Source of the DNA: a virus
DNA length: 22,222 nt
IMG/VR virus record: IMGVR_UViG_3300045996_003090
Location: 1 to 22,222 of that record
Strand: one strand, 5' to 3'
This document shows, piece by piece, positions 2,227 to 21,884 of the stretch. The translations under genes and the position numbers were made by a program. The notes beneath the pieces were generated by a model. It searched no databases, was not told where the DNA came from, and was given only the letters and a program-made list of their open reading frames with translations. Numbering within the stretch: position 1 is the first letter of the stretch; each line of letters starts with the position of its first letter.

Positions 2227-3597
2227 GTGCCCCGCCTGCTCCCCTCCCTGCTGGGCGCAAAGACCCTGCGTCACTGGCGCTTCCCCTGCCATTTGCGCAC
2301 CCTGGAACAGCACTGCCTGCGCCTCGCCGACGACCCGACGTACAACCGCCTCGTGGTCGAAATACCCGTGCGTCACGGAAAGAGCTGGTACTGTTCGTGG
2401 ATGCTGCCGGCGTGGTATCTGCTGACGCGCCCCAGCCGCCGCGTGATCCTCGCCAGTTATGAAAAGGAGTTCGCGAACGAATGGGCCGTCAAGGTGCAGC
2501 ACACCATCGAGCAGTACGGCGAACGGCTGACCGGCGTGTCCCTGGGCGGCATCCGCAAGCAGGAACACTTCACGTTGGCTGCGCCCTACGCGGGCGAGTT
2601 GCGCACCGCCAGCCCCGGCAGTGGCGTCGCGGGCAAGGGGGCGGATCTCATCGTCATGGACGACCTCGTCAAGGACGCGAGGAAGGCCGCCAGCGCCAGC
2701 CAGCGGCACGCGCTCTCGACGTGGGTTAACTCGGAGCTGATGACCCGCCTGGAGCCCGACGGCAAGGCGATGGCGGTGATGAGCAGGCGCCACCCCGACG
2801 ACCAGTCCGGGCGATTCCTGGCACAGAACCCCGAGCTGCCGCCGCACCTGCAGTGGCACCGATTACACATGAGCGCGATAGGCGAGGACGGCGCCGCTTT
2901 GTGGCCCGCCCGCTGGCCGCTGTCGCGCCTCCTGGAGATCAAGCGCGACTACGAACTCGCCGGGCAGAGCTACCTGTGGTCGTGCCTGTACGACAACGAC
3001 CCGCGCGGCGACTCGACCATGATCGAGTGGCCCGAGGACTACTTCGCCGATCTGCCCGGCCGCCCGTTCTCCTACGACGAGCTCCCGCCCGACCTGCCCG
3101 TCAAGTGGCGCCTGCTGTCGCTGGACCCCTCCAAGGGCAAGGGCAGCCGCCGCGGCGACTACAGCGCCTGGTGCGACGTGACGGTTGACAAACAGGCGAC
3201 CATGTGGGTGCATCCGCACCTGAAGGTGATCCCCACCGAGGCCGTGGAAGACTACAGCGTTGAACTTTTGTCCCGTAACAGGTACGATGCGTTCGTCTGC
3301 GAGTGCAACGGCTTTCAGGAAGTGGTCGCGGACAACATCGCCCGCAAGGCATCAGCGAAGGGCGTGCACTGCCCGCTGTTCAGGAAGACTTCCACGGAAG
3401 ACAAGGAGGTCAGGTTACGCCTGGGGCTGGGGCCGCTGTTCGACCAGCGCCGCGTGCGGATGTGTGCCAGGTCCACGAGCTACCGATTGGCCCTGGCGCA
3501 ACTGCGGGAGTTCCCGACCGCCTCGCACGATGATTTTCCTGACTCGCTGAACCTGGCGTGCGACCTGATCAACTACCTGCTCACCGGGAGGCGCTAG
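2227..3597 (+). CDS. terminase large subunit (packaging ATPase and nuclease)
   Basis: The 456-residue protein carries the terminase signature. The ATPase has a Walker A-like PVRHGKS (about 47-53) and Walker B DLIVMDD (140-146). The C-terminal RNase H-like nuclease has its acidic triad in LLSLDPSKG...GDYSA (first Asp), FVCECNG (Glu) and SHDDFPDSLNLA (final Asp cluster). It docks at the portal, pumps DNA into the prohead by ATP hydrolysis and cuts concatemers. Length is normal for the family. Translation starts at a GTG only 4 nt after the previous stop, so coupling is likely. All key residues are present, so the enzyme should be active. Confidence 0.95.
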   Translation: MPRLLPSLLGAKTLRHWRFPCHLRTLEQHCLRLADDPTYNRLVVEIPVRHGKSWYCSWMLPAWYLLTRPSRRVILASYEKEFANEWAVKVQHTIEQYGERLTGVSLGGIRKQEHFTLAAPYAGELRTASPGSGVAGKGADLIVMDDLVKDARKAASASQRHALSTWVNSELMTRLEPDGKAMAVMSRRHPDDQSGRFLAQNPELPPHLQWHRLHMSAIGEDGAALWPARWPLSRLLEIKRDYELAGQSYLWSCLYDNDPRGDSTMIEWPEDYFADLPGRPFSYDELPPDLPVKWRLLSLDPSKGKGSRRGDYSAWCDVTVDKQATMWVHPHLKVIPTEAVEDYSVELLSRNRYDAFVCECNGFQEVVADNIARKASAKGVHCPLFRKTSTEDKEVRLRLGLGPLFDQRRVRMCARSTSYRLALAQLREFPTASHDDFPDSLNLACDLINYLLTGRR

Positions 3598-3599
3598 AC

Positions 3600-3839
3600 A
3601 TGGCGGAGGGCGCGCTCGTCATATGGGAATTTATCGGAGGGCCGGCGGACGGTTCTAAATCCGCGTTCAAGGACAAAGGCACGCCGCCCCCGCCCGACGT
3701 GGATTACAGGCAACGATACGGCAACCCGGACTGTCCCAAACACCTCTACGTCTTCGTAGACGAGGTGATCACGGCGGAAGGCAACAAGTGGAGGCGATAC
3801 CGCCACGCCGGCCTCGCCGCGGACGCCCCGACAGCCTGA
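3600..3839 (+). CDS. small phage protein of the 'F-x-GGPxDG...YRHAG' type
   Basis: The 79-residue protein contains EFIGGPADG near the N-terminus and YRHAGL near the C-terminus. From memory, this pairing occurs in many small uncharacterised phage and actinobacterial or planctomycete proteins. The ATG at 3600 is preferred over upstream codons because GGGAGG in the end of the terminase gene lies 8 nt before it. The gene is packed directly after the large terminase. No enzymatic motif is visible and the function is unknown. Confidence 0.7.
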   Translation: MAEGALVIWEFIGGPADGSKSAFKDKGTPPPPDVDYRQRYGNPDCPKHLYVFVDEVITAEGNKWRRYRHAGLAADAPTA

Positions 3840-3855
3840 ACCTAAGGTGGCAGAC

Positions 3856-4188
3856 GTGAGGGTGATTTTCAATCTGCACGTTGGTGGTGCCGACGGCACT
3901 ACCTTGATGCGACTGGCGGCCGACTTGCCTTTCGCGCCGCGGAAGGGCGATCACTTCGTCTTCTGCCCGGACTTCTGTTGCGCTCCGGGCTTGGCCCCCT
4001 GTAAGGCTAACCCGCCGTTTTACAGGGTCGCCGAAGGCTGTTGGGACGTCACCCTTTTCGACGATGACTGCCAAGGTAGTATGAACGAAAAAATCGCTCA
4101 CTACGCGGCCTGTGGCTTCGTCGAGGTCGTGAGCTGCCGAGAACTTTACACAGAGGCAGAGGTGGCAAGCAACCTGAACGGAGACTGA
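3856..4188 (+). CDS. hypothetical Cys-rich protein
   Basis: The 110-residue protein begins MRVIFNLHVGGADG. It contains a cysteine-rich stretch (FCPDFCCAPGLAPC, about 37-50) and three further cysteines downstream, which could bind metal or form disulfides. The GTG at 3856 is chosen because AAGGTGG lies about 8 nt upstream; a GTG at 3847 would add three residues but overlaps that ribosome-binding site. Codon third positions are less GC-rich than in the neighbouring terminase and portal genes, which may reflect recent acquisition. I do not recognise the family. Confidence 0.6.
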   Translation: MRVIFNLHVGGADGTTLMRLAADLPFAPRKGDHFVFCPDFCCAPGLAPCKANPPFYRVAEGCWDVTLFDDDCQGSMNEKIAHYAACGFVEVVSCRELYTEAEVASNLNGD

Positions 4189-5043: not shown

Positions 5044-7980
5044 GTGAATCTCATCGCACGCCTGAAGGCCGCCGCCCGCACCCTCTGGAGCGGCACGCTC
5101 GCCGAGGCCACCGCCGCGGACGTCTACGGCCGCCCCGTGTCGTGGATGGATTTGTGGACGGTCAACGGCCGCCCGCTCTCGCCGGTCCACCCGATCTACG
5201 GACCCGAGACGCGCAAGGAAAAGAACGCCACCCTGCGCACGCTGCAGGACCACGACCACGCCCGCAACCGCGCCCGCGTCCTGGCCGAGACGAACCCCAA
5301 CGCCGCGGGCTTGATCGACCGCTTGACGGCCTACAACGTCGGCAAGGGCAGCACCACCGAGGTGCAGGCCGTCAAGGAGGACGCCGAGCCGCCCAAGCGA
5401 CTCGCCGCCAAGGTGCGCGACTTCCTCAAGGAGTTCAAGCGCGTAAACAACTGGACGAAGCGCGAGCGCGAGTTCGTCCGCCGCCTGCACGTCGACGGGG
5501 AGTTCTTCCTGCGCTTCTTCCCGCAGAAGGACGGCACGACCCTCGTCCGCTTCGTCAACCCCGCCGCCATCCGCCCGCCGACGGGCGAGGACGCCGAGGG
5601 CGACTGGTCCTTCGGCATCCACACCCCGAACCTCGGCGACGACGACGACGCCGGCAGCGACGCCGAAGCCCCCGTGGCCTACTGCATCCACAACTTCCGT
5701 GAGAGTACCGACGAGATCGTCGAGGCGCAGTTTATTTTGCACGCCAAGATCAATTGCCTGAGCGATCAAAAGCGCGGCGTGCCGTCGCTGTACGCCGTGG
5801 AGGAAGAGTTGATCGGCAGCGCCAAGCTCCGCTGGGCCACGCGCGAGGGCGAGAAGAACCGCGCCTGTATCACCTACTTCCGCCGCCACAAGGCCGCCAG
5901 TGAAAGCTCCGTGCGTGCCTGGCAGGGCGCCCAGGCCGCGGCGGTCATGGAGCGGCCCAGCGACACGGGCAACCAGTCCCAGGTCTACGTCGAGCGCATC
6001 GAGGCCGGCAGCGTCGTGGACATCCCCGAGGGGCTCGACCCCTTGCCGCCCCCTTCGTCGCCCAACAGCGCCGCGGCGGGCGGCAGCGTGCAGCAGGCGC
6101 TCGAGGCCGTCGCGGCGCGGTTCGGCGTGCCCTACTGGATCGTCTCGGGCGACAGCGCCGCCACGAACTTCGCCGCCAGTCTGACCGCCGAGAGCCCCTT
6201 CACCGTCACCGTGCAGGACACGCAGTCCGACTTGGCCGAACTATCCGACGCCTGCCAGACCAAGGCCCTGGAGATCGGCGCCGAGCAGGCGCTGTTGCCC
6301 GAGGACGTGCTCGAGCAGATCGACCTGATCGTCAGCTTCCCCAGTCCCGTCAGCCGCAACAAAAAAGAAGAGAGCGACCGGCTGAAGGTGCTACATGACG
6401 ATTCCATCATAAGTCGGGCGGAAAGAACGACGCAGGAGGGCTTCGACCCGGAGAAGCAGCAGGCGCAGATCGTCGAGGAGCGGGCCGCCGAGGCGCGGCA
6501 GCCGCCGCAGCCCGGCCCCGCCCCCGGAGCGAACGGCGCGGCACAAAACGGGGCCAACGGCAAGGCACCCTCGGGCACGCCGGCCGCGCGTTACGCCCAG
6601 ATGACCGGGGCGCTGCGCGAGGGCGAGAGCCGGCGGCGCGAGGACTCGGACGAAGACGACGAGGACGACGAAGATCCACGGCTGATCGAGCAGAACGAAT
6701 GGACCGCCTACGAAGGCAAGCGCGGCGGCAAGGGGTGGCGGAACGCGAAGACGGGCCGGATCGTCTACGGCGAGCGGATGCCCGGCGGCGGCCGGCACGC
6801 GAAGGCGAAGGCCGACCCGGCCCAGGCGGGCGGCAAGCTGCGTGCGCTTCTGGCCGACCCGTCGAAGCTCACCCCCGAGGCCGTGCGCGACGCGGTCGAG
6901 GACGTGATGAGCCTGACGGTGCCGCAGATAAACGCGCTGAAGAAGGAGCTGGGCGTTAAAGCGAGCGGACCCAAGGCGGAACTGGCGAAGAAGGTGGCCG
7001 AGCGGGCGCTGGCGAAGGCGGGCCCGAGGCCGGCGGACGACGCGCCGCCGCCTCAGGCCGAGAAGCCCGCCGCGAAGAAGCAGGCGCCGCCGGCAGCCGC
7101 CGACCCCATCGACGCCGTGCTCGACGCCTACGAGGCGCACGCGGGCGGCGCGGCCGGCAGGCCCGAGATGCTCGCGAAGGTCAAGGGCATCATCGACGGC
7201 CTGGACGGCGCCGACCGCGAGCGGGTGCTGGATCACGTCGGCGTCTCCGACCTCGACGACCCTCACGGCAACCTCGACGACCGCCTCGCCTCCGCGCTGC
7301 TTTCGCGACAGGCCGGCGACGACGGCCGCCCGCCGCGCCCCGGCGCGAAGGCGGAGGCGTCGGGGCCGCTGCCCAGGCACCCCGCGGGCGCGGCGGCCCT
7401 GCCGGACTACTCCCGGCCGCCCGCCGAGCTGAAGGACGTGAGGAAGAAGGTCAAGGCCCGCTCGGTCGTCACGGAGAGGGACCGCGAGGTCGTGACGTTC
7501 TCCGACTTCGACGGCGACCCGAAGGCGGCGGCGGACGCGCTGCGGGCGTCCGGCTGGGACGTGATCAGCGAAGGCGGCATCGGCGGCGAACCCGTCGTCA
7601 CGGCCGCGCCCGCCCGGAAGCTGCCCGCGACGCCGAAGGCGGCCTATCACCTCGTGCCGAAGAAGCACCTGAAGGCCGTCTTGAAGGACGGGCTGAAGCC
7701 GGGGGGCCAGGCCAGAGAGGGTCATCAACTGGCCTACGGGTCCGGCCGCGTGTTCCTCAGCGGCAGCGAGGAAGGCGCCGAGGTGTGGCGCAGCCAGCTC
7801 GACGCGGGCACCCAGACGGGGGCCGAAAGCAAGATGGTCCTCATCAAGGTCGATCTGGCGGACGCGGGCGTGGACGCCTACAAGGACCAGGCCGGCGCCG
7901 TCATGGACCCGACGGCGTTCTACCTCCCCGGCGCGGGCGTGCCGGCCGCCCGGCTGTCCGTCGTGGAGAAGCGGCCATGA
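5044..7980 (+). CDS. portal protein, lambda-like, with long SAP-like and ART-like C-terminal extension
   Basis: Residues 1 to about 485 look like a lambda gpB-type portal: a TLRTLQDHDHARNRARVLAETNP segment, GLIDRLTAYNVGKG (like the family's 'vGxGi' turn), DGEFFLRFF, QKRGVPSLYAV, and FGVPYWIVSGD before a helical end. Portals form the dodecameric DNA entry vertex that docks terminase. The remaining ~490 residues are unusual: an acidic run (EDSDEDDEDDED, about 533-545), a Gly/Arg-rich WTAYEGKRGGKGWRNAKTG motif, a SAP-like helix-extended-loop-helix (about 609-659, LTVPQINALKKELGV), a helical domain (about 687-758), and a C-terminal domain (about 865-978) reading AYHLVPKKHLKAVLKDGLKPG...GRVFLS..., reminiscent of ADP-ribosyltransferase or RNA 2'-phosphotransferase-like folds. 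Family members are usually near 500 residues. The GTG start at 5044 has GGGGGCG upstream. Confidence 0.85.
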   Translation: MNLIARLKAAARTLWSGTLAEATAADVYGRPVSWMDLWTVNGRPLSPVHPIYGPETRKEKNATLRTLQDHDHARNRARVLAETNPNAAGLIDRLTAYNVGKGSTTEVQAVKEDAEPPKRLAAKVRDFLKEFKRVNNWTKREREFVRRLHVDGEFFLRFFPQKDGTTLVRFVNPAAIRPPTGEDAEGDWSFGIHTPNLGDDDDAGSDAEAPVAYCIHNFRESTDEIVEAQFILHAKINCLSDQKRGVPSLYAVEEELIGSAKLRWATREGEKNRACITYFRRHKAASESSVRAWQGAQAAAVMERPSDTGNQSQVYVERIEAGSVVDIPEGLDPLPPPSSPNSAAAGGSVQQALEAVAARFGVPYWIVSGDSAATNFAASLTAESPFTVTVQDTQSDLAELSDACQTKALEIGAEQALLPEDVLEQIDLIVSFPSPVSRNKKEESDRLKVLHDDSIISRAERTTQEGFDPEKQQAQIVEERAAEARQPPQPGPAPGANGAAQNGANGKAPSGTPAARYAQMTGALREGESRRREDSDEDDEDDEDPRLIEQNEWTAYEGKRGGKGWRNAKTGRIVYGERMPGGGRHAKAKADPAQAGGKLRALLADPSKLTPEAVRDAVEDVMSLTVPQINALKKELGVKASGPKAELAKKVAERALAKAGPRPADDAPPPQAEKPAAKKQAPPAAADPIDAVLDAYEAHAGGAAGRPEMLAKVKGIIDGLDGADRERVLDHVGVSDLDDPHGNLDDRLASALLSRQAGDDGRPPRPGAKAEASGPLPRHPAGAAALPDYSRPPAELKDVRKKVKARSVVTERDREVVTFSDFDGDPKAAADALRASGWDVISEGGIGGEPVVTAAPARKLPATPKAAYHLVPKKHLKAVLKDGLKPGGQAREGHQLAYGSGRVFLSGSEEGAEVWRSQLDAGTQTGAESKMVLIKVDLADAGVDAYKDQAGAVMDPTAFYLPGAGVPAARLSVVEKRP

Positions 7981-8234: not shown

Positions 8235-8295
8235 GAGAGATGAGCAGCGCAAACGAAGCGTATGCTCATCTTTTCGTTTGTAGCTGCTCTCTCTC
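8235..8295 (+). other. 21-bp stem-loop in the protease leader
   Basis: Three paired blocks stack with only small interruptions: GAGAGA (8235-8240) with TCTCTC (8290-8295); GAGCAGC (8242-8248) with GCTGCTC (8283-8289); and CAAACGAA (8250-8257) with TTCGTTTG (8273-8280). A 15-nt loop (8258-8272) caps them. The hairpin ends 26 nt before the ATG at 8322. It could be an RNase III-type processing site or a translational or antitermination control between the portal and head genes. No T-run follows. Confidence 0.65.
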
Positions 8296-8321
8296 TGCCC
8301 ACACCACAGAGAGCAGCCGCC

Positions 8322-9239
8322 ATGCACATGCACCTCCGCGACGTCTTCCTCACCGAACAGAACGTCGCCGTCGAGGGGGACGTCCTCAAGAACGTCGTCC
8401 TGCACGGCCCCGTCAGCACCAACGGAAACGAATACAGTCTCGACGCGATGCGCTCGCTGGTCCCCCTCCTGGAGGGCCGCGACGTGTACGTCAATCACCG
8501 CGTCGGCAAGAAGGCCCGCGACGTGGACGAACGCTTCGGCCACGCCCAGAACGTCCGCGTCGTCGAGCACGACCACGACGGCAGGCCGCGCGTGCGCGGC
8601 GACCTGCACTTCATGCGCTCGCACAAGGACTGCGCCCAGATCATCGAGGCGTACACGAAGGGCGCGCCCTACTACGGCACGTCCATCGTCGCCGACGGCA
8701 CGGGCCGGCAGGACGGCCGCAAACGCTTCGTCGAGCAGGTCACGCGCGTCGCGAGCCTTGACCTCGTGGACCGCGCCGCGACCGGCAGCCTGGTCGAGCA
8801 AGACGAGGGCGAGGGCGAGGCGCCGGCGGACCCCGCCGCGCGCATGACCAACGCGATGTGCGAGATGATCAGCGCCATCGTCACGGACACGTCGCTGGAC
8901 AAGGCCGGCAAGATGGCCAAGATCGAGGCCATCCTTGACGCCGCCGAAACGCCCGCCCCCGGCGAAGCCCCGGCCGCGCCCGCCGAAGGCGACGCGCCGC
9001 CGCCCATGTCCGAGCAGAGGCTGGCGAAGATGGTCGGCAACCTCGTCGAGCAGGCGCTCGCCCGGCGCGACGAGAAGCACGCCGGCCTCGTGGAGCAGGA
9101 AGTACAGCGCCGCCTGGCGGACGCCCGGTACGTCAAGCCCGCCACCACGCCGGGCGGGCCGCCGCCTCCGCAGTCCGCGGCCAAGGACGTGCCGCCTCAA
9201 GACCCCGCCGCGCGAAAGAAGTGGCTGCACTCCAACTGA
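8322..9239 (+). CDS. head maturation protease fused to scaffold
   Basis: The 305-residue protein has an N-terminal domain (about 1-175) with the layout of a phage prohead protease. After a TNGNEYS turn comes GRDVYVNH with a candidate catalytic His59, then a GDLHF strand and YYGTSIVADG with a candidate catalytic Ser121, then VASLDLVDRAATGSL. The C-terminal part (about 180-305) is Ala/Pro/Glu-rich and helical, as expected for an internal scaffold removed during maturation. It acts inside the prohead, processing scaffold and possibly capsid. It lies between portal and decoration/capsid genes, the usual place. AGAGAG at 8308-8313 supports the ATG at 8322; a second ATG at 8328 is also possible. 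The exact protease family (S78-, S77- or U35-like) cannot be fixed by eye. Confidence 0.8.
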   Translation: MHMHLRDVFLTEQNVAVEGDVLKNVVLHGPVSTNGNEYSLDAMRSLVPLLEGRDVYVNHRVGKKARDVDERFGHAQNVRVVEHDHDGRPRVRGDLHFMRSHKDCAQIIEAYTKGAPYYGTSIVADGTGRQDGRKRFVEQVTRVASLDLVDRAATGSLVEQDEGEGEAPADPAARMTNAMCEMISAIVTDTSLDKAGKMAKIEAILDAAETPAPGEAPAAPAEGDAPPPMSEQRLAKMVGNLVEQALARRDEKHAGLVEQEVQRRLADARYVKPATTPGGPPPPQSAAKDVPPQDPAARKKWLHSN

Positions 9240-9241
9240 AC

Positions 9242-9263
9242 AGAGAGGTGAGCGGTGCCTGAC
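9242..9263 (+). pseudogene. orphan initiation region of the decoration-protein gene
   Basis: AGAGAGGTG (9242-9250), 4 nt and GTG CCT GAC (9255-9263) form a good ribosome-binding site and start reading Met-Pro-Asp. The frame runs only to a TGA after 17 codons. The same 9-mer with identical spacing recurs at 9689-9697 before ATC CCG GAT (Ile-Pro-Asp), which leads into the decoration gene. I read the first copy as the original start, cut off from its gene when the HNH cassette arrived. Confidence 0.5.
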
Positions 9264-9282
9264 GCGCGCACACCACAAACAG

Positions 9283-9300
9283 ATTTGTGCCCACACAAAT
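9283..9300 (+). other. hairpin just upstream of HNH endonuclease 1
   Basis: ATTTGTG (9283-9289) pairs perfectly with CACAAAT (9294-9300) around CCCA. It is unusually AT-rich for this window and ends 10 nt before the ATG at 9311. It may control translation of the endonuclease or mark the cassette boundary. Confidence 0.5.
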
Positions 9301-9310
9301 GGTTTTGAGT

Positions 9311-9712
9311 ATGTGGCGAACCATCCCCGACTTTCCCGGCTACGAAGTGTCCGATTCCGGGCAGGTGCGCAGCTACCGCAGGCGCGGACACGGCGGCCTG
9401 AAAGCGACGCCACGCCTGCTGAAGCTGCAACGGTACGGCACCTACTACCACGTCCGGCTCACCCGCACCGACGGGAAGATCATCCAGATTTCCGTCCACG
9501 TCCTCGTCCTCGAAACGTTCGTCGGTCCCCGCCCCGAAGGGCTGTGGGCGCTGCACAGGGATGACGAGCCCACGAACAACCACCTCGACAACCTGTACTG
9601 GGGCACGGTGGGTCAGAACCTCAAGGACGCATGGCGGAACGGCAGGTACGCCTCCCGCGTGTTGAACGTTAAACCCGGCTCACGCCGGAGAGAGGTGGAT
9701 CATCCCGGATAG
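9311..9712 (+). CDS. NUMOD4-HNH homing endonuclease (HNH1)
   Basis: The 133-residue protein opens with a NUMOD4 signature, WRTIPDFPGYEVSDSGQVRS (2-21). It is followed by an HNH nuclease domain: a VHVLVLETF helix with His63, WALHRDD with His82, then N90-N-H-L-D-N94-LYWGT and N103. Such proteins are free-standing phage homing endonucleases that nick or cut a cognate site and spread by repair. ATG 9311 is preferred because it begins exactly at the NUMOD4 domain; GTG 9287 and ATG 9299 are in frame but lie in a hairpin. No strong ribosome-binding site is present. The last codons (GTG GAT CAT CCC GGA TAG) overlap the new 5' end of the decoration gene in another frame. It separates protease from decoration gene, normally adjacent, marking it as an insertion. 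Confidence 0.88.
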   Translation: MWRTIPDFPGYEVSDSGQVRSYRRRGHGGLKATPRLLKLQRYGTYYHVRLTRTDGKIIQISVHVLVLETFVGPRPEGLWALHRDDEPTNNHLDNLYWGTVGQNLKDAWRNGRYASRVLNVKPGSRRREVDHPG

Positions 9713-9713
9713 C
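9689..9713 (+). promoter_or_regulatory. second (diverged) initiation region of the decoration gene
   Basis: AGAGAGGTG (9689-9697) is followed after 4 nt by ATC CCG GAT AGC in frame with the TTG at 9714. The canonical start position is occupied by ATC, so initiation may occur at TTG 9714 (16 nt from the ribosome-binding site) or, unusually, at ATC 9702. Confidence 0.5.
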
Positions 9714-10205
9714 TTGTACAACTATGCACGCCACATCCGCGGGCACGCCAACGAGAAGCGTTTCCCCGGCACCGTCGCGGCGGAGATCAAGGCCGGCGAC
9801 TTCCTCGTGATGGCCTCCAACAAGGTCATCCGCGTCAGCAGCATGGCCGACGCGGGTACGCTGGCGCAGAACCAGGAGGCCGCCCACGACGTGTTCGCGG
9901 GCGTCGCCATCGACCAGAAGCGCGCCGGCGAGACGCGCGACGTGCTGGTGGCGACCCAGGGCGTCTTCCGCTACCCCTGCGTGGCCCTGCTCGCCGCCAG
10001 CGACGCGGGCGCCTTCGTCGGCATCGAGGGCACGGGGGCGGGCCTGGCCGTGGGCATGGCCGACCAGATCGTCGTCGTCGTCGCCACGGCCAACCTCGCC
10101 ATCGGCAAATTGGCCCGCGCCGCCGCGATCGGCGACGTGTTCCTGGAGGTCGAGATCGCCTCCGTGCTCGGCACCGTCCACAGCGGCGCGCAGGCCCCGG
10201 CCTGA
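9714..10205 (+). CDS. putative capsid decoration protein
   Basis: The protein has about 163 residues from TTG 9714, beginning LYNYARHIRGHANEKRFPGTVAAEIKAGDF. It is rich in short beta-strands, with repeated Val/Ala/Gly stretches (VFAGVAIDQKRAGETRDVLVATQGVFRYP). A small beta-rich protein between protease/scaffold and major capsid gene fits a head-stabilising decoration protein such as those of the gpD or DUF2190 types. The assignment is by position and composition. The start is ambiguous because the well-placed codon is ATC at 9702 (adding Ile-Pro-Asp-Ser) while TTG 9714 is a legal but poorly spaced start. This oddity coincides with the upstream HNH insertion. Confidence 0.65.
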   Translation: MYNYARHIRGHANEKRFPGTVAAEIKAGDFLVMASNKVIRVSSMADAGTLAQNQEAAHDVFAGVAIDQKRAGETRDVLVATQGVFRYPCVALLAASDAGAFVGIEGTGAGLAVGMADQIVVVVATANLAIGKLARAAAIGDVFLEVEIASVLGTVHSGAQAPA

Positions 10206-10255: not shown

Positions 10256-11542
10256 ATGGCGATACGCGGCGAGAAGTTCACGAGCCTGTTCGAGCAGGCG
10301 ATGAACGCCGACGTGAAGAACAACCCCGCGGCGTCGGGCGTGGCCGGCTACAAGCGCACCCTGCGGCGGATGCTCGGCATCACCGAGGGCCCCGGCGGCG
10401 AGCCGACGATCGACCGCGACGCGCGCGAGTTCGACCCGAAGGAAGTCAGCTTCGGCGAGCTGTGGCGTGTCTTCAAGCCCAGGGGCATGTCCGACGGCGA
10501 CATGCCGATGGCCATGTACCGCTCGCAGATGCTGGGCCTGACCGAGGCCGAGGGCCACGTCGTGTTGCCCTCGCACTTCTCGAACATCAGTGCGTTCTCG
10601 GCCACCGTGGCGGGCCTGCTCGACGCGCTGATCCTCGACGCCTACGTCCAGCCGGCCTTCAAGGCCGAGGAGCTGTTCACGCACGAAGACAGCAAAATGA
10701 GCGGCGGCTCCGCCATCGGCGTCATGAACGACGGCGAGGCGGGCGACGAACTCAACATGGGCGAGGCGTACCCCACGGTGGGCCTCAAGGAGACGAAAGT
10801 CTCGATCCCCGAGAACCAGCGCCGGGGTAACGTGATCCAGATCAACGAGCTGGATCTGATCTACGACCGCACCGGCAAGATTCAGGAGATGGCGACCAAC
10901 GCCGGCACGGCCGTCCGCCGCCTGAAGGAGATCGCCTGTGCCAAGGTGTTTTTGGGCATCACCAACACCTATTCCCGCGACGGCGTCACGGCCAACACCT
11001 ACCTCAAGACCGCGGGCTTCATCCCGGCGAACTACGTCAACAGCCTCGGGTCGCTGCCGCTGACCAGCTACACGAACATCGACACGGCCACCCAGACGCT
11101 CGCCACGAACCGCGACCCCGGCACGGGCTTCGAGATCGACATTCCCAAGCCGATCCAGGTGGCGGTCATGCCGCAGCGCTACCTGAGCCTGCTGACGATC
11201 ACCCGCGCCACGGAAGTCGAGACGCGCACCACCGACCAGACGGTGATCCGCCGCAGCGAAAGCCCCCTGCCGGGCATCGAGCCGGTGGAGCTTCCCATGC
11301 TCTACTACAACCTGCTCGTCGCCTCGGGCGTGTCGGCCGCGAACTCGGTGGAGCGCTGGTACGCGGGCAATTTCAAGAAGACGTTCCGCTACCGGCAAAT
11401 CATCCCGTTCGAGAGCCGCGAGGCCCCGCTGTCCAGCGAGGACGTCCGGCGTGACATCGTGCTGATCAAAGTCGCCCGCGAGATCGGCCGCCCGTGGGTG
11501 TGGGAGCCCAGATTTACTTTTGGTGCCACCAACGAGGCGTGA
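10256..11542 (+). CDS. major capsid protein (HK97-like fold, putative)
   Basis: The 428-residue protein lies directly after protease and decoration genes. It begins with a helical N-terminal region (about 1-100), then shows LLDALILDAYVQPAFKAEELF, where HK97-type capsid proteins start their core. A TKVSIPENQRRGNVIQINELDL strand and loop region follows, then RRLKEIACAKVFLG, a typical spine-helix-like segment, and a C-terminal YRQIIPFES...RDIVLIKVAREIGRPWVW. It would form the icosahedral shell. Length is in the normal range. GAGG 5 nt before the ATG supports the start. No single catalytic motif exists for this family, so the call rests on position, size and this layout. Confidence 0.8.
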   Translation: MAIRGEKFTSLFEQAMNADVKNNPAASGVAGYKRTLRRMLGITEGPGGEPTIDRDAREFDPKEVSFGELWRVFKPRGMSDGDMPMAMYRSQMLGLTEAEGHVVLPSHFSNISAFSATVAGLLDALILDAYVQPAFKAEELFTHEDSKMSGGSAIGVMNDGEAGDELNMGEAYPTVGLKETKVSIPENQRRGNVIQINELDLIYDRTGKIQEMATNAGTAVRRLKEIACAKVFLGITNTYSRDGVTANTYLKTAGFIPANYVNSLGSLPLTSYTNIDTATQTLATNRDPGTGFEIDIPKPIQVAVMPQRYLSLLTITRATEVETRTTDQTVIRRSESPLPGIEPVELPMLYYNLLVASGVSAANSVERWYAGNFKKTFRYRQIIPFESREAPLSSEDVRRDIVLIKVAREIGRPWVWEPRFTFGATNEA

Positions 11543-11821: not shown

Positions 11822-12142
11822 ATGGACTGGGGCGTTTCCTGGGAGGACCTCGAGGACCCGATCACCGTCACCCTGCGTTATCTGGCGGCTGGCGTCGCGG
11901 CGGAAAAGGTCGTCCCCTACGCCTGGAAGAGCGCGGAGGAGAAGCGCGAGGTCACGACGAGCCCGGCGATGACGGAGGCGACGTTCTGCCGCTTCCATCT
12001 GTGGGCGGATCACTTAGGCGGCGTCGAGCCGACGAAGGGCAACAAGGTGGCCGAGGAGGGCGGGGCGGTCTGGCACGTCGAGTCCGCCCAGAAGCAGTCG
12101 CGGGGGCGGCGGTTCCGACTGGAGTGCAGGCGTGATAGATGA
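11822..12142 (+). CDS. head closure/stopper-like protein (putative)
   Basis: The 106-residue protein has alternating strands and basic loops (ITVTLRYLAAG, REVTTSPAMTEATFCRFHLWAD, GRRFRLECRRDR). AGGTGGGCG precedes the ATG. It lies between capsid and tail-completion genes, and its last 11 nt overlap the next gene. Size and position fit the head-closure or stopper proteins that seal the connector, but sequence evidence is weak. Confidence 0.55.
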   Translation: MDWGVSWEDLEDPITVTLRYLAAGVAAEKVVPYAWKSAEEKREVTTSPAMTEATFCRFHLWADHLGGVEPTKGNKVAEEGGAVWHVESAQKQSRGRRFRLECRRDR

Positions 12143-19156: not shown

Positions 19157-19657
19157 GTGGCAGCCATAAAAACCGCCTACGGCACGACGACCGCCGGCAG
19201 CGGCGGCCTGACGTCCCTCGCGTCCTCCTCGACGTGGATAGCCGGGTACGAATGGTTCGTCGTGGACAACGCGACGGAGCTGGCGCTGAGCTACCGCCAC
19301 GACGGCAAGGTCCGCGTCGGCACCACGCCCACGATCAACACGGAAATACGCATCTACCTCGTCGCCAGCAACGACGGCACCAACTGGCCCGACGTGTTCG
19401 ACGGCACGCCCTCGGCCGAGACGGTCACGAGCGCCGGCGTGCGTGACGGGTTCGCCAAACTCGCCGCCGTGCTGCCGGTGGACGCGACGACCTCCGACCG
19501 CGATTACCCCTACGAGTTCGACGCGGCCCAGGTGTTCGGCGGATCGCTGCCCAGGAAGTACGCCCTGTTCGTCGCGCACAACACGGGCGTCAACCTGAAC
19601 TCCACGGCGGGCAACCACACCTACCGTTACACCCCTATTTTCGCGACTTCAACTTGA
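19157..19657 (+). CDS. conserved phage tail-region protein; C-terminus replaced by the HNH2 cassette copy
   Basis: The 166-residue protein from GTG 19157 reads SLASSSTWIAGYEWFVVDN, YRHDGKVRVGTTPTINTEIR, WPDVFDGTPSAETVTSAG and FVAHNTGVNLNSTAGNHTY. From memory this is a widespread phage family found beside tail fibre genes, beta-rich and probably virion-associated. Its last ten residues, RYTPIFATST, are encoded by 19625-19654. A diverged second copy of this end, RYTPVYATST plus TAA, lies 718 bp downstream, beyond the HNH2 gene. The present C-terminus therefore appears to have come in with the cassette, keeping the protein functional. The 3' end overlaps HNH2 tail-to-tail by 23 bp. Confidence 0.85.
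   Translation: MAAIKTAYGTTTAGSGGLTSLASSSTWIAGYEWFVVDNATELALSYRHDGKVRVGTTPTINTEIRIYLVASNDGTNWPDVFDGTPSAETVTSAGVRDGFAKLAAVLPVDATTSDRDYPYEFDAAQVFGGSLPRKYALFVAHNTGVNLNSTAGNHTYRYTPIFATST
19625..19657 (+). repeat. recoded copy of the tail-gene 3' end (copy in use)
   Basis: This is the 33-nt segment encoding RYTPIFATST and TGA. It matches 20343-20375 at 24 of 33 bases. The first 11 bases are identical, and the differences lie mostly at third codon positions. Confidence 0.8.
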
Positions 19658-20282
19658 TGGGGCGGGGAGGCTTGGTCAAGGCATCATGGACCGTCCACTT
19701 ACGTTTGAAGACTCTGTCCAAAATGAGCGAGGCGGGGATGCCCGTCTCGCGGGACCACTGCGCGAGCGTAAGGAGTCGGCCGCCGTGTTCGAGGATGCGA
19801 TTGCTGCGTCTGTTGTTGGCCTGATCCTCCTTGGTCGCCCAGCGGACGTTGCCCGGCTCATAGCCCTTACTGTTGTCGATGCGATCGATGGAGTGTTCGC
19901 CGCTCGGGGGGTCGCCGACCGCGACGGCGAACGCCTCGAACGACGCCCGCCACTCCGGGCATACGACGACGCCCCGGCCGCCGTACAGGTGATAGTTCTG
20001 CTGGGACGGGTAGGTGCATCGCGCTATGATCCCTGCCCAGACGCCGTACAGGCGCGTGCGGCGTCGGCCGTGCGTCCTGTTCCTCCGGGCGAGTACTTCG
20101 GAGTTGAGACATCCGCAACTGGCCGTCCGACTGAGGTTGGCGGCAAGGACGCGGGCGGTGTTGCCGCAGTCACAATCGCACGACCAGACGGTGCGCTTTT
20201 GCTTGCCCACGAGGACACTCTCGTGCGAGCGGGCGACGAGCCTACCGAACCGTTGCCCTGCAATGTTTTTGAACGCTGGCAT
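19635..20282 (-). CDS. HNH-type homing endonuclease with zinc-finger N-terminus (HNH2)
   Basis: The 215-residue protein lies against the tail operon. Residues 1-58 carry AGQRFGRLV and a Cys-rich finger (C35, C37, C39, C56, C58). The central nuclease region has the family pattern LYGVWAGIIARC (78-89), YHLYGGRGVVVCPEWRASF (97-115), SIDRIDN (131-137) and GYEPGNVRWAT (140-150), then N/R-rich residues. The C-terminus has a TLAQWSRETGIPASLILDRV helix-turn-helix-like DNA-binding segment. This is a common free-standing phage endonuclease type. AAGGG about 12 nt upstream may serve as ribosome-binding site but can pair in an 8-bp stem. Codon third positions look less GC-rich than in the neighbours. Its last codons lie antisense within the tail gene's new 3' end. 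Confidence 0.88.
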   Translation of the reverse strand: MPAFKNIAGQRFGRLVARSHESVLVGKQKRTVWSCDCDCGNTARVLAANLSRTASCGCLNSEVLARRNRTHGRRRTRLYGVWAGIIARCTYPSQQNYHLYGGRGVVVCPEWRASFEAFAVAVGDPPSGEHSIDRIDNSKGYEPGNVRWATKEDQANNRRSNRILEHGGRLLTLAQWSRETGIPASLILDRVFKRKWTVHDALTKPPRPIKLKSRK

Positions 20283-20291
20283 GCTAGCGCT

Positions 20292-20343
20292 GCCCTTGAA
20301 TGGGGGATTCTATTGACCCCATTGTACGCTACCTGTCAAGGGC
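20292..20343 (-). promoter_or_regulatory. structured leader of HNH2
   Basis: GCCCTTGA (20292-20299) pairs with TCAAGGGC (20336-20343), and inside it ATGGGG (20300-20305) pairs with CCCCAT (20317-20322). On the - strand the putative ribosome-binding site AAGGG lies in the outer stem, so translation could be gated by folding. A perfect TTGACA (20334-20339, - strand) is also present, but no well-spaced -10 follows it. Confidence 0.45.
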
Positions 20344-20375
20344 GTTACACCCCCGTCTACGCCACCTCGACGTAA
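20343..20375 (+). pseudogene. orphan 3' end of the tail gene (RYTPVYATST-stop)
   Basis: This 33-nt remnant encodes RYTPVYATST and TAA, is not attached to any gene body, and is followed at once by GGAGG and the next start. It is best read as the original end of the 19157 gene, left behind when the HNH2 cassette entered at or near CGTTACACC. Confidence 0.75.
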
Positions 20376-20384
20376 GGAGGCCGC

Positions 20385-21884
20385 ATGCTGGGCCGCTACG
20401 TCGATCTGGGCAACCCGGTCGCCGGCCACCCCCTCAACGAGGGCCTGATCTCGTGGTGGCTGCCGCTGCCGAACAACCAGGGCGGCGGGACGCTGTTCGA
20501 CCTGAAGAGGAAGTACGACGGGGCGCTCAACAACGGCCCGGCGTGGGCGCCCGGCCCGAACGCCTTCGCCTCGCTGGACTTCGTGCGGGCCTCCGACCAG
20601 TTCGTCGAGGCGGACTACGCGCCGCTGTCCGCCCTGAGCTGCACGTTCTGGTTCCGCCCCAACTCCCTGGTCAACTACTTCGTGTGGGTGGACACCAACA
20701 ACGGGGCCTCCATCACCCAGGACGTGCGCGTCTACAGCGACTCGGGCGGCACGCTGCACGCCGACTGCAACGGCGCCGACACGACCGTCGCCGGGGTGGT
20801 CGCGGGGGCGTGGAACTTCGCGGCGCTGATTCGGACGGGCGCGGGGACCAACCTCCTGTATCTATGGCCACCCTCGGGCGGGCCGCTCGTCAGTCCGGCG
20901 ACAATGTCTAGCCTAGGTGTCGCCTCCACGAAGTTCCGCATAGGTCGCGCCAAGGACGGGCACGCCTGCGACGGCCGGGCGACCGACGTGCGGCTGTACT
21001 CCCGCGCCCTGGGCGCCGCCGAACTGCGGGGGCTGTACGAGCAGGGATTGCGCGGCCACCCCGACACGCTGAGGCGCTGGTCGCGGCGGGCGTACCTGTT
21101 CGGCACGGCGGGCGGCGGCGGCGGGGGCGTCGCCGGCACGCTGGCCGTGACGCTCGCCGCCCCGACGCTCGCGTCCGCGGGCGCCGCGGCCGTCGCGGGG
21201 GCGGCCTCCCCGACGGCGCCGAACGTGACGGCCGCCTCGGCCGGCACGGTCGCCGTGGCCGGCGCCGCCGCGCCGACGCTGCCCGGCCCGACGCTGGCCT
21301 CGGCGGGCGCGTCCGCCGTCGCCGGGGCCGCCTCGATCACCCTGGCCGCCGCCACGCTGTCGTCCGCGGGCGTCGCCCCCGTCGTCGGGACGCTGGCGCT
21401 GACCGTGCCCTTCGTGGCCACCGTCTCGGCGGGCACCGCGCCCGTCGTCGGCGCCGGCGGCGGCGCCACGCCCGCCCCGACGCTGTCCGCCGCGGGGGCC
21501 GCGCCGGTCGTCGGTGCGCTGGCCGGCACGCTGGCCGCCCCGACGCTCCAGGCCGGCTCGAGCACTTCCGCCAGCGGCACGCTTTCGGTTACACTGGACG
21601 CGGTCACACTTTCGGCGGCGGGTGCCGTGGCCGTCGCCGGGGCGTCGGCGGCCGTCGCCACGGCCCCGACGCTCGCCTCGGCCGGCGCCGCCGCCGTGGC
21701 CGGGCAGTCTTCGGCGACGCTGGCCGGCGTGATCCTGGCCGCCCTCGCGGCGGCGCCGGTGGCCGCCGAAGCCTCGGTCACTCTGCCGCCCCCGACGCTC
21801 GCCGCGGCCGGGGGCGAGACGCCGCCCGGGCCCGCGGCGGGGGCCGACTACTTCCGCCGTTACGTCCTATCCAGAAGGGGGTGA
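20385..21884 (+). CDS. LamG-like virion protein with eleven 21-residue repeats
   Basis: The 499-residue protein starts at ATG 20385, with GGAGG 4 nt upstream. Residues about 15-225 have a concanavalin/LamG-like layout (GLISWWLPLPNN, LSCTFWFRPNS, WNFAALIRTG, FRIGRAKDGHACDGRATDVRLYSRALGAAELRGLYEQG), a fold that often binds glycans. A Gly run (GTAGGGGGG) leads to eleven consecutive 21-residue Ala/Thr/Val/Gly-rich repeats (about 249-479), then a short basic end ADYFRRYVLSRRG. It probably lies on the tail or virion surface and may contact host polysaccharide; that is inference from fold and position. The repeats may form an extended beta-stalk. Confidence 0.8.
   Translation: MLGRYVDLGNPVAGHPLNEGLISWWLPLPNNQGGGTLFDLKRKYDGALNNGPAWAPGPNAFASLDFVRASDQFVEADYAPLSALSCTFWFRPNSLVNYFVWVDTNNGASITQDVRVYSDSGGTLHADCNGADTTVAGVVAGAWNFAALIRTGAGTNLLYLWPPSGGPLVSPATMSSLGVASTKFRIGRAKDGHACDGRATDVRLYSRALGAAELRGLYEQGLRGHPDTLRRWSRRAYLFGTAGGGGGGVAGTLAVTLAAPTLASAGAAAVAGAASPTAPNVTAASAGTVAVAGAAAPTLPGPTLASAGASAVAGAASITLAAATLSSAGVAPVVGTLALTVPFVATVSAGTAPVVGAGGGATPAPTLSAAGAAPVVGALAGTLAAPTLQAGSSTSASGTLSVTLDAVTLSAAGAVAVAGASAAVATAPTLASAGAAAVAGQSSATLAGVILAALAAAPVAAEASVTLPPPTLAAAGGETPPGPAAGADYFRRYVLSRRG
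21129..21821 (+). repeat. eleven tandem 63-bp coding repeats
   Basis: Eleven units of exactly 21 codons run without any indel. A typical unit reads VAGAASITLAAATLSSAGVAP. Positions of V-x-G at the start and S/A-A-G near the end are best conserved. Confidence 0.85.

Follow-up and report, generated by a model that had tools for sequence, protein, structure and literature searches.

A NUMOD4-HNH_3 endonuclease gene between two diverged copies of a decoration gene start in an IMG/VR virus record

Positions 1 to 22,222 of the virus record IMGVR_UViG_3300045996_003090 (the window; records of this class are often fragments) encode, in this order, terminase, portal, a protease-like protein, the HNH endonuclease HNH1, a decoration protein, the major capsid protein (MCP), and the products of further genes; the names “protease” and “decoration” are positional. 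HNH1 lies between two copies of the start region of the decoration gene, and both copies are homologous to the corresponding junction in relatives where this site is empty. In the reading that we consider probable, HNH1 is a homing endonuclease gene of the NUMOD4-HNH_3 type that entered the decoration gene at its 5' end, behind codon 4, and came with a diverged replacement start. Cutting of the empty site by HNH1, and its homing, are predicted from the sequence.

HNH1 and the two decoration start regions

The HNH1 product matches the Pfam families PF13392 (HNH_3; E = 4.4e-8, 33.1 bits against a cut-off of 24.8) and PF07463 (NUMOD4; E = 8.7e-8, 32.7 bits against a cut-off of 23.4), and its PHROG matches are HNH families, with E values down to 5.4e-35. 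Its core residues H63, H82, N94, and N103, which we take to be catalytic, are invariant across 9 aligned sequences.

An earlier note on this DNA, made from the sequence alone, had pointed to a block that occurs twice, with the same 4-nt spacing, before Met-Pro-Asp and Ile-Pro-Asp codons. This holds: with both strands of the window searched, AGAGAGGTG is found only at 9242-9250 and 9689-9697. The upstream copy is followed by the spacer AGCG and by GTG CCT GAC GCG (9255-9266), the downstream copy by GATC and by ATC CCG GAT AGC TTG TAC (9702-9719), which continues with AAC TAT in the frame of the decoration gene. The two copies agree at 14 of 25 aligned bases. The block, a ribosome-binding site (RBS), is identical in both, and they differ in all four spacer bases and at the third base of both common codons (CCT GAC versus CCG GAT), keeping Pro-Asp as the note had observed. 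The frame opened by the upstream, stranded GTG ends at TGA 9306-9308, two bases 5' of the HNH1 ATG. At the other side, the end of HNH1 overlaps the aligned decoration start (ATC 9702) by 11 nt, and the first common start codon in the decoration frame, TTG 9714, comes 1 nt after the HNH1 stop. An imperfect hairpin (9276-9307) directly precedes HNH1 in an A+T-rich stretch (47.9% GC in 9264-9311 versus 65 to 71% around it); its stability is not significant, being equaled in 76 of 300 shuffles.

Relatives were sought with the MCP as the query. Planctomycete genomes, chosen on account of open reading frame (ORF) 54-752, which we presume to belong to a Gemmataceae paralogue family, were reached via a typed consensus sequence. 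The MCP search matched 10 of 95 Gemmataceae-family genomes, with four places at 48 to 50% identity, and five viral records at 47 to 50%. L229 was added from a search with the decoration protein, and the viral records L108 and L110, which have the same sequence as L099 and L101 in the compared region, were not counted separately. The comparison of starts covers eight distinct relatives, each of which has protease, decoration, and MCP genes (L098, L099, L100, L101, L106, L107, L109, and L229) and excludes more distant matches, such as L102 to L105 and those from a search of the phylum (13 of 392 genomes). Single-protein searches of the viral and genome collections with window proteins gave no relatives, and there were none among phage records for the decoration protein or the MCP.

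In all eight relatives, each of them distant, the HNH gene is absent between the protease and decoration genes, and the 20 to 71 nt from the protease stop to the decoration start leave no space for one. The decoration protein begins with Met-Ala-Asp in six of them, and in five the gene opens with GTG-Ala-Asp-Ala (GTG-GCN-GAY-GCN); L098 has ATG GCG ACC, and L101 has CCT GAC directly 5' of the decoration ATG. The stranded GTG-Pro-Asp-Ala matches the five GTG-Ala-Asp-Ala starts at codons 1, 3, and 4, and the downstream Ile-Pro-Asp-Ser-Leu-Tyr aligns codon for codon with Met-Ala-Asp-Ala-Leu/Lys-Tyr, residues 1 to 6 of the relatives. Because both copies match the decoration start of the relatives, the HNH1 cassette can be placed after decoration codon 4. 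These empty junctions and GTG-Ala-Asp-Ala starts bear out the suggestion that the decoration gene was separated from its original start. Two details expected of HNH-less relatives were not found: the decoration protein begins with Met-Pro-Asp in none of the eight (residue 2 is Ala in six), and none has the AGAGAGGTG leader, three having AAGGAG and L109 having AGAGGT with a longer spacer.

As to chance, 0.10 occurrences of AGAGAGGTG are expected from 100 dinucleotide shuffles versus the 2 observed. Among 33,251 pairs of Shine-Dalgarno (SD)-type sites from the window and 9 related loci, 11 have the whole 9-base block in register, 5 match at least 7 of its 9 bases plus residues 2 and 3, and none matches all 9 bases plus these residues. 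An x-Asp-Ala sequence after an SD-preceded start occurs at 7 of 559 starts in the window and 6 related loci, namely, in five decoration genes, at 9255, and at one unrelated start. The repeated block and its flanking codons are real, and their weight comes from homology, not from the 9-mer.

Replaced gene ends beside other HNH genes

The clearest case comes from the Cheoctovirus mycobacteriophages, in which a NUMOD4-HNH_3 gene may lie beside the lysin B gene. We compared KingMidas, Eish, and Ramsey, which have this gene, with PopTart and Minnie, which lack it. From residue 71 on, lysin B is 93 to 98% identical between the two groups, whereas its first 64 residues are 69 to 74% identical between groups and 88 to 98% within them; in KingMidas, the first ~58 codons are another version. 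In DNA, the identity of Ramsey and Minnie does not exceed 0.67 in alignment columns 1 to 120 and is 1.00 over the 120 columns that begin with column 210; it rises more gradually for KingMidas and Minnie. KingMidas has, after the lysin A stop, the ATG CGC ATC GAC that is present in the empty sites of JalFarm20 and PopTart. There the likeness breaks off, so that the order is stranded ATG-CGC-ATC-GAC, HNH gene, and lysin B with alternative first codons. Ramsey and Eish show no clean stranded start. As a foreign version of the target's first codons accompanies this HNH family in mycobacteriophages, cassettes linked to a diverged copy of the target terminus are real in phages. The earlier claim that the HNH1 cassette brought a diverged replacement start thus has a counterpart within the same HNH family; for the window itself, we infer it.

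The 5' segment of the Ramsey/KingMidas type was found in 22 phage records, 15 of which have an annotated HNH gene beside it. The remaining 7 belong to Flathead, Inventum, ArcusAngelus, and Eish, and in the one record examined of each, HNH DNA lies directly upstream. The Minnie-type segment matched 493 records, many of them from other phage groups at 75 to 85%; among the 60 matches listed, none had an annotated HNH gene under the match, a count in which unannotated ones would not show. The annotations themselves vary: the HNH gene is unannotated in the Inventum, Flathead, and ArcusAngelus records examined, and the Eish lysin B (L215, 2213-3517) has been given an upstream start, so that the annotated gene extends through HNH DNA. 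For the JalFarm20 lysin A (L223, 1-904), the annotation joins two pieces separated by an antisense HNH gene, an arrangement like that of an intron.

We also surveyed the best 80 loci with HNH1-like genes, of which 79 were compared, one being dropped for short flanks. Protein-level comparison of the flanks was swamped by off-frame GC-rich matches, with control scores of up to 123; only L151 (153) exceeds this, and L142 (108) is inside the control range. The L151 match joins two real gene starts, as judged from ORFs read by eye. In this locus (2318-3993), the HNH ORF opens with ~54 residues that belong to a displaced N-terminus of lysin B, and its final 10 bases overlap the beginning of a complete lysin B gene (the overlap in the window is 11 nt). 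The displaced N-terminus is 64 to 70% identical to HNH-less versus 53 to 59% to HNH-bearing lysin B, and the replacement is 78 to 83% identical to HNH-bearing versus 67 to 76% to HNH-less lysin B. The replacement N-terminus is 83% identical to that of KingMidas, and the rest of the protein is 59% identical.

Gene 3' ends can be arranged likewise. A diverged second copy of a gene terminus is present on either side of the ORF both at HNH1, where it is short, and at HNH2, an HNH gene on the minus strand of the window (19625-20381). HNH2 carries the final codons of gene 19157-19657 in a diverged copy, and the displaced copy at 20343-20375 retains the RBS of the next gene. The best PHROG families of HNH2 differ from those of HNH1, and its stop, too, falls within the cassette-side copy. 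L142 (2359-3443) has the same layout as HNH2: on the 5' side of its HNH gene, the final 24 codons of the opposing gene are present as a displaced and diverged copy, and the gene-joined copy overlaps the HNH 3' end. The opposing gene in L142 is related to tail assembly chaperones of mycobacteriophage records. Two further loci were not counted. In L207 (1904-1990 and 2998-3070), a gene's start is repeated over 52 nt (88%) at a place ~1.1 kb upstream, and the interval contains another ORF and an HNH gene; the repeat is perhaps a displaced start or a paralogue. L143, in which an MTD start occurs twice, was rejected, as the match is too short.

Mechanism, alternatives, and window features

An invasion of this kind could proceed as follows. 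The nuclease would cut near the start of its target gene. The left side would be joined within the resident start codons, with the RBS and GTG-CCT-GAC-GCG staying on the left, and the right side would recombine inside the gene, bringing the donor's terminus along. The 3' end of the HNH1 cassette would then carry, or have co-converted from the donor, a diverged start region of the target, and the decoration gene would continue past the HNH1 stop. Judging from the spacing, the stranded RBS may drive the 17-codon leader and couple the translation of HNH1, whose ATG lies just beyond the leader stop, to the old RBS. The second RBS would assist in making the decoration protein, whose translation could begin at ATC 9702 but more probably re-initiates at TTG 9714. 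The recoded start would presumably remove the nuclease's own target site while the capsid protein stays functional.

We tentatively propose, with somewhat less than even confidence, that phage HNH genes can invade in a “bring your own terminus” mode, in which a recoded terminal module at the HNH 3' end repairs the gene, destroys the target site, and leaves the native terminus as a fossil. It would be a 5' module if the HNH gene reads with its target and a 3' module if it reads against it. If this is true, HNH genes could enter essential genes without introns or inteins, and the terminal mosaicism of capsid and lysin genes would be explained; if general in phages, the mode would account for HNH genes at gene starts and ends and for the donor's escape from its own nuclease. 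The idea could readily be tested on Cheoctovirus lysin B, for which HNH-bearing and HNH-less phages are recorded on one laboratory host strain.

Several observations weigh against invasion with a replacement start. The replacement region has ATC at the start-codon position and hence is not the clean working start that the note had supposed; possible explanations are weak initiation at ATC itself, decay of a former start codon with initiation now at TTG 9714, or an error in the assembly. The closest empty-site relatives are distant (decoration protein, 55 to 61%; MCP, 47 to 50%), and no nearer one was found. The 5' end of the decoration gene may be of foreign origin. The first 22 residues of the protein are 36 to 48% identical to those of the relatives and the remainder 57 to 63%, but a similar contrast occurs in HNH-less pairs that include L098 or L101, so it does not demonstrate such an origin. 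The N-termini of lysin B are likewise more conserved than the rest in HNH-less pairs (PopTart and MooMoo, 83 versus 59), so the corresponding contrast in L151 does not in itself point to transfer. The survey shows no clear enrichment of duplicated termini beside HNH genes: at the DNA level, flank repeats were found at 2 of 79 HNH loci versus 3 of 395 control places with E values of up to 1e-10, 2 versus 7 at 1e-4, 9 versus 16 at 1e-3 (three of these nine loci, L172, L174, and L175, look like copies of one sequence), and 11 versus 28 at 1e-2. Finally, GAGGTG-N4-start is a recurrent RBS of this phage, found also at 11822 and 15463, which makes the identity of AGAGAGGTG alone weak evidence, and in a plain local DNA alignment the match of the HNH1 flanks is not significant, with 24% of 200 shuffles as good (p 0.24).

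These last two points would also fit an arrangement in which the upstream RBS and GTG are HNH1's own leader, inserted cleanly with it between the protease and decoration genes, and the likeness to the decoration start reflects chance and a common RBS type; among their first four residues, moreover, the two copies have only Pro-Asp in common. We regard this as unlikely, given that the stranded site is where a decoration start is expected, that it retains the GTG, Asp, and Ala of the relatives, and that SD-preceded starts other than those of decoration genes are seldom followed by x-Asp-Ala (1 of 553 starts once the five decoration starts and 9255 are set aside). The same layout is also clearer in KingMidas and L151. 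These two systems bear as well on a target-site duplication, in which repair of the cut duplicated ~25 bp of the recipient's own start, the copies diverged later, and nothing came with the cassette. Two short copies flanking an insert, with an unchanged 9-mer within the 14 matching bases, speak for it, but the changes in both third bases and the whole spacer beside an intact RBS do not suit it. Nor are the Cheoctovirus lysin B versions diverged twins: they are different lineages, and in L151 the displaced copy is nearer to HNH-less lysin B and the other copy nearer to the HNH-bearing type. We consider such a duplication less likely still.

A self-splicing 447-nt intron containing HNH1 would join GTG-CCT-GAC to AGC-TTG-TAC, and removal of the 447 nt does keep the frame and yield Met-Pro-Asp-Ser-Leu-Tyr, like the relatives. 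We nevertheless find it highly improbable: no intron match was obtained from Rfam, either for the whole window at the gathering score or for 9150-9850 at E values of up to 10, and the HNH1 ORF extends past the would-be 3' splice site. As this ORF fills most of the 447 nt, little room is left for a known ribozyme core of the size that we assume. A group I or II intron was rejected for want of a catalytic core by covariance model, and an intein was rejected on the ground that the frame from the stranded start is not continuous (TGA at 9306-9308).

Table 1. Coordinates of the HNH1 locus and of related features in the window
Feature	Positions	Strand	Basis and remarks
Head maturation protease-like gene	8262..9239	+	Position between portal and decoration/MCP genes; relatives keep the order
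Stranded SD block AGAGAGGTG	9242..9250	+	Sequence; anti-SD pairing -7.1 kcal/mol
Stranded first four decoration codons GTG CCT GAC GCG (Met-Pro-Asp-Ala)	9255..9266	+	Homology to relatives
17-codon leader frame from stranded start	9255..9308	+	Sequence; stop TGA 2 nt before HNH1 ATG
HNH1, free-standing NUMOD4 + HNH_3 endonuclease gene	9311..9712	+	Pfam, PHROG; ATG 9311 to TAG 9710-9712
Second SD block AGAGAGGTG	9689..9697	+	Within 3' end of HNH1 frame
Recoded start region ATC CCG GAT AGC	9702..9713	+	Decoration frame; aligned to codons 1-4 of relatives
Decoration (cement-like) protein gene	9714..10205	+	55-60% identity to the relatives' gene beside MCP
MCP gene	10256..11542	+	Pfam Phage_capsid_4, E = 3.8e-9; query for relatives; 47-50% identity to Gemmataceae-family prophages and viral records
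HNH2 cassette-side copy of 3' end of gene 19157-19657 (RYTPIFATST*)	19625..19657	+	39-nt repeat, 72% identity
HNH2 displaced copy (RYTPVYATST*)	20343..20375	+	Followed by RBS of next gene at 20385

Homologues of the protease-like gene with 30 to 36% identity are found in the same order in the relatives, and its sole PHROG match is to a family of unknown function. For the decoration protein, structure prediction failed (mean pLDDT 32.7), so the name rests on position and on a Phage_cement_2 match below the Pfam threshold (E = 0.02). The portal gene (5044-7980) has 978 codons, with portal families matching residues up to ~540 only and a long C-terminal extension remaining.

Relation to known mobile endonuclease genes

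The usual explanations for selfish endonuclease genes in conserved genes are self-splicing introns, inteins, and splits that the genes tolerate. In a further route, which the accessible text of PMC3630166 describes in fungal mitochondria, a recoded copy moving together with the nuclease replaces the gene's own terminus. For phages, we found neither stranded start codons nor cassette-borne 5' ends reported next to HNH genes in the open-access literature searched (subscription papers being mostly out of reach), including the available portions of PMC2248197, PMC12724721, and PMC10448857; the last of these does place nuclease genes at boundaries of exchange in phages.

It is established that phage endonucleases home and that the flanks are co-converted in the process (PMC2988022). 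Like the HNH genes of the T-even pairs mobE/nrdA and mobA/gene 60, HNH1 is free-standing and is located at or within a conserved gene, where flanks are co-converted and stop/start overlaps suggest translational coupling, but no replacement terminus is described for the T-even genes in the accessible part of that source. In mycobacteriophages, HNH insertions near lysin genes have been reported with an unclear right junction and adjacent lysin A 5' ends that lack a close homologue, and a role for such insertions in intragenic mosaicism has been proposed (PMC3706429); in the F1 phage Girr, an HNH gene separates lysin A from lysin B (PMC13056207). As far as the accessible text of these two papers goes, neither stranded start codons nor swapped lysin B N-termini are described. 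The ShiLan element (PMC11855218) is likewise an HNH insertion in a phage gene, which its authors could assign neither to the introns nor to the inteins. It differs from HNH1 in being an in-frame insertion inside a methylase gene, with the HNH in another frame and, in the portion of the paper available, no duplicated terminus described.

A close likeness is to the mobile ORFs of fungal mitochondrial DNA, where gene-terminus hybrids are known from Allomyces atp6 and from Glomus atp6, atp9, cox2, and nad3 (PMC3630166, as far as accessible). In both settings, an endonuclease ORF lies in a gene, an inserted copy of the gene end is in phase, and a diverged native copy is present beyond the ORF. The fungal cases, however, involve 3' ends, with a LAGLIDADG ORF for atp6, whereas HNH1 involves a 5' end including the RBS and a NUMOD4-HNH_3 gene in a tailed phage. 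Thus, within the literature that could be accessed, terminus hybrids are known at fungal 3' ends, and stranded starts and cassette-borne 5' ends were not found described for phages. HNH2 in the same window, with its copied 3' end, is closer than HNH1 to the fungal type.
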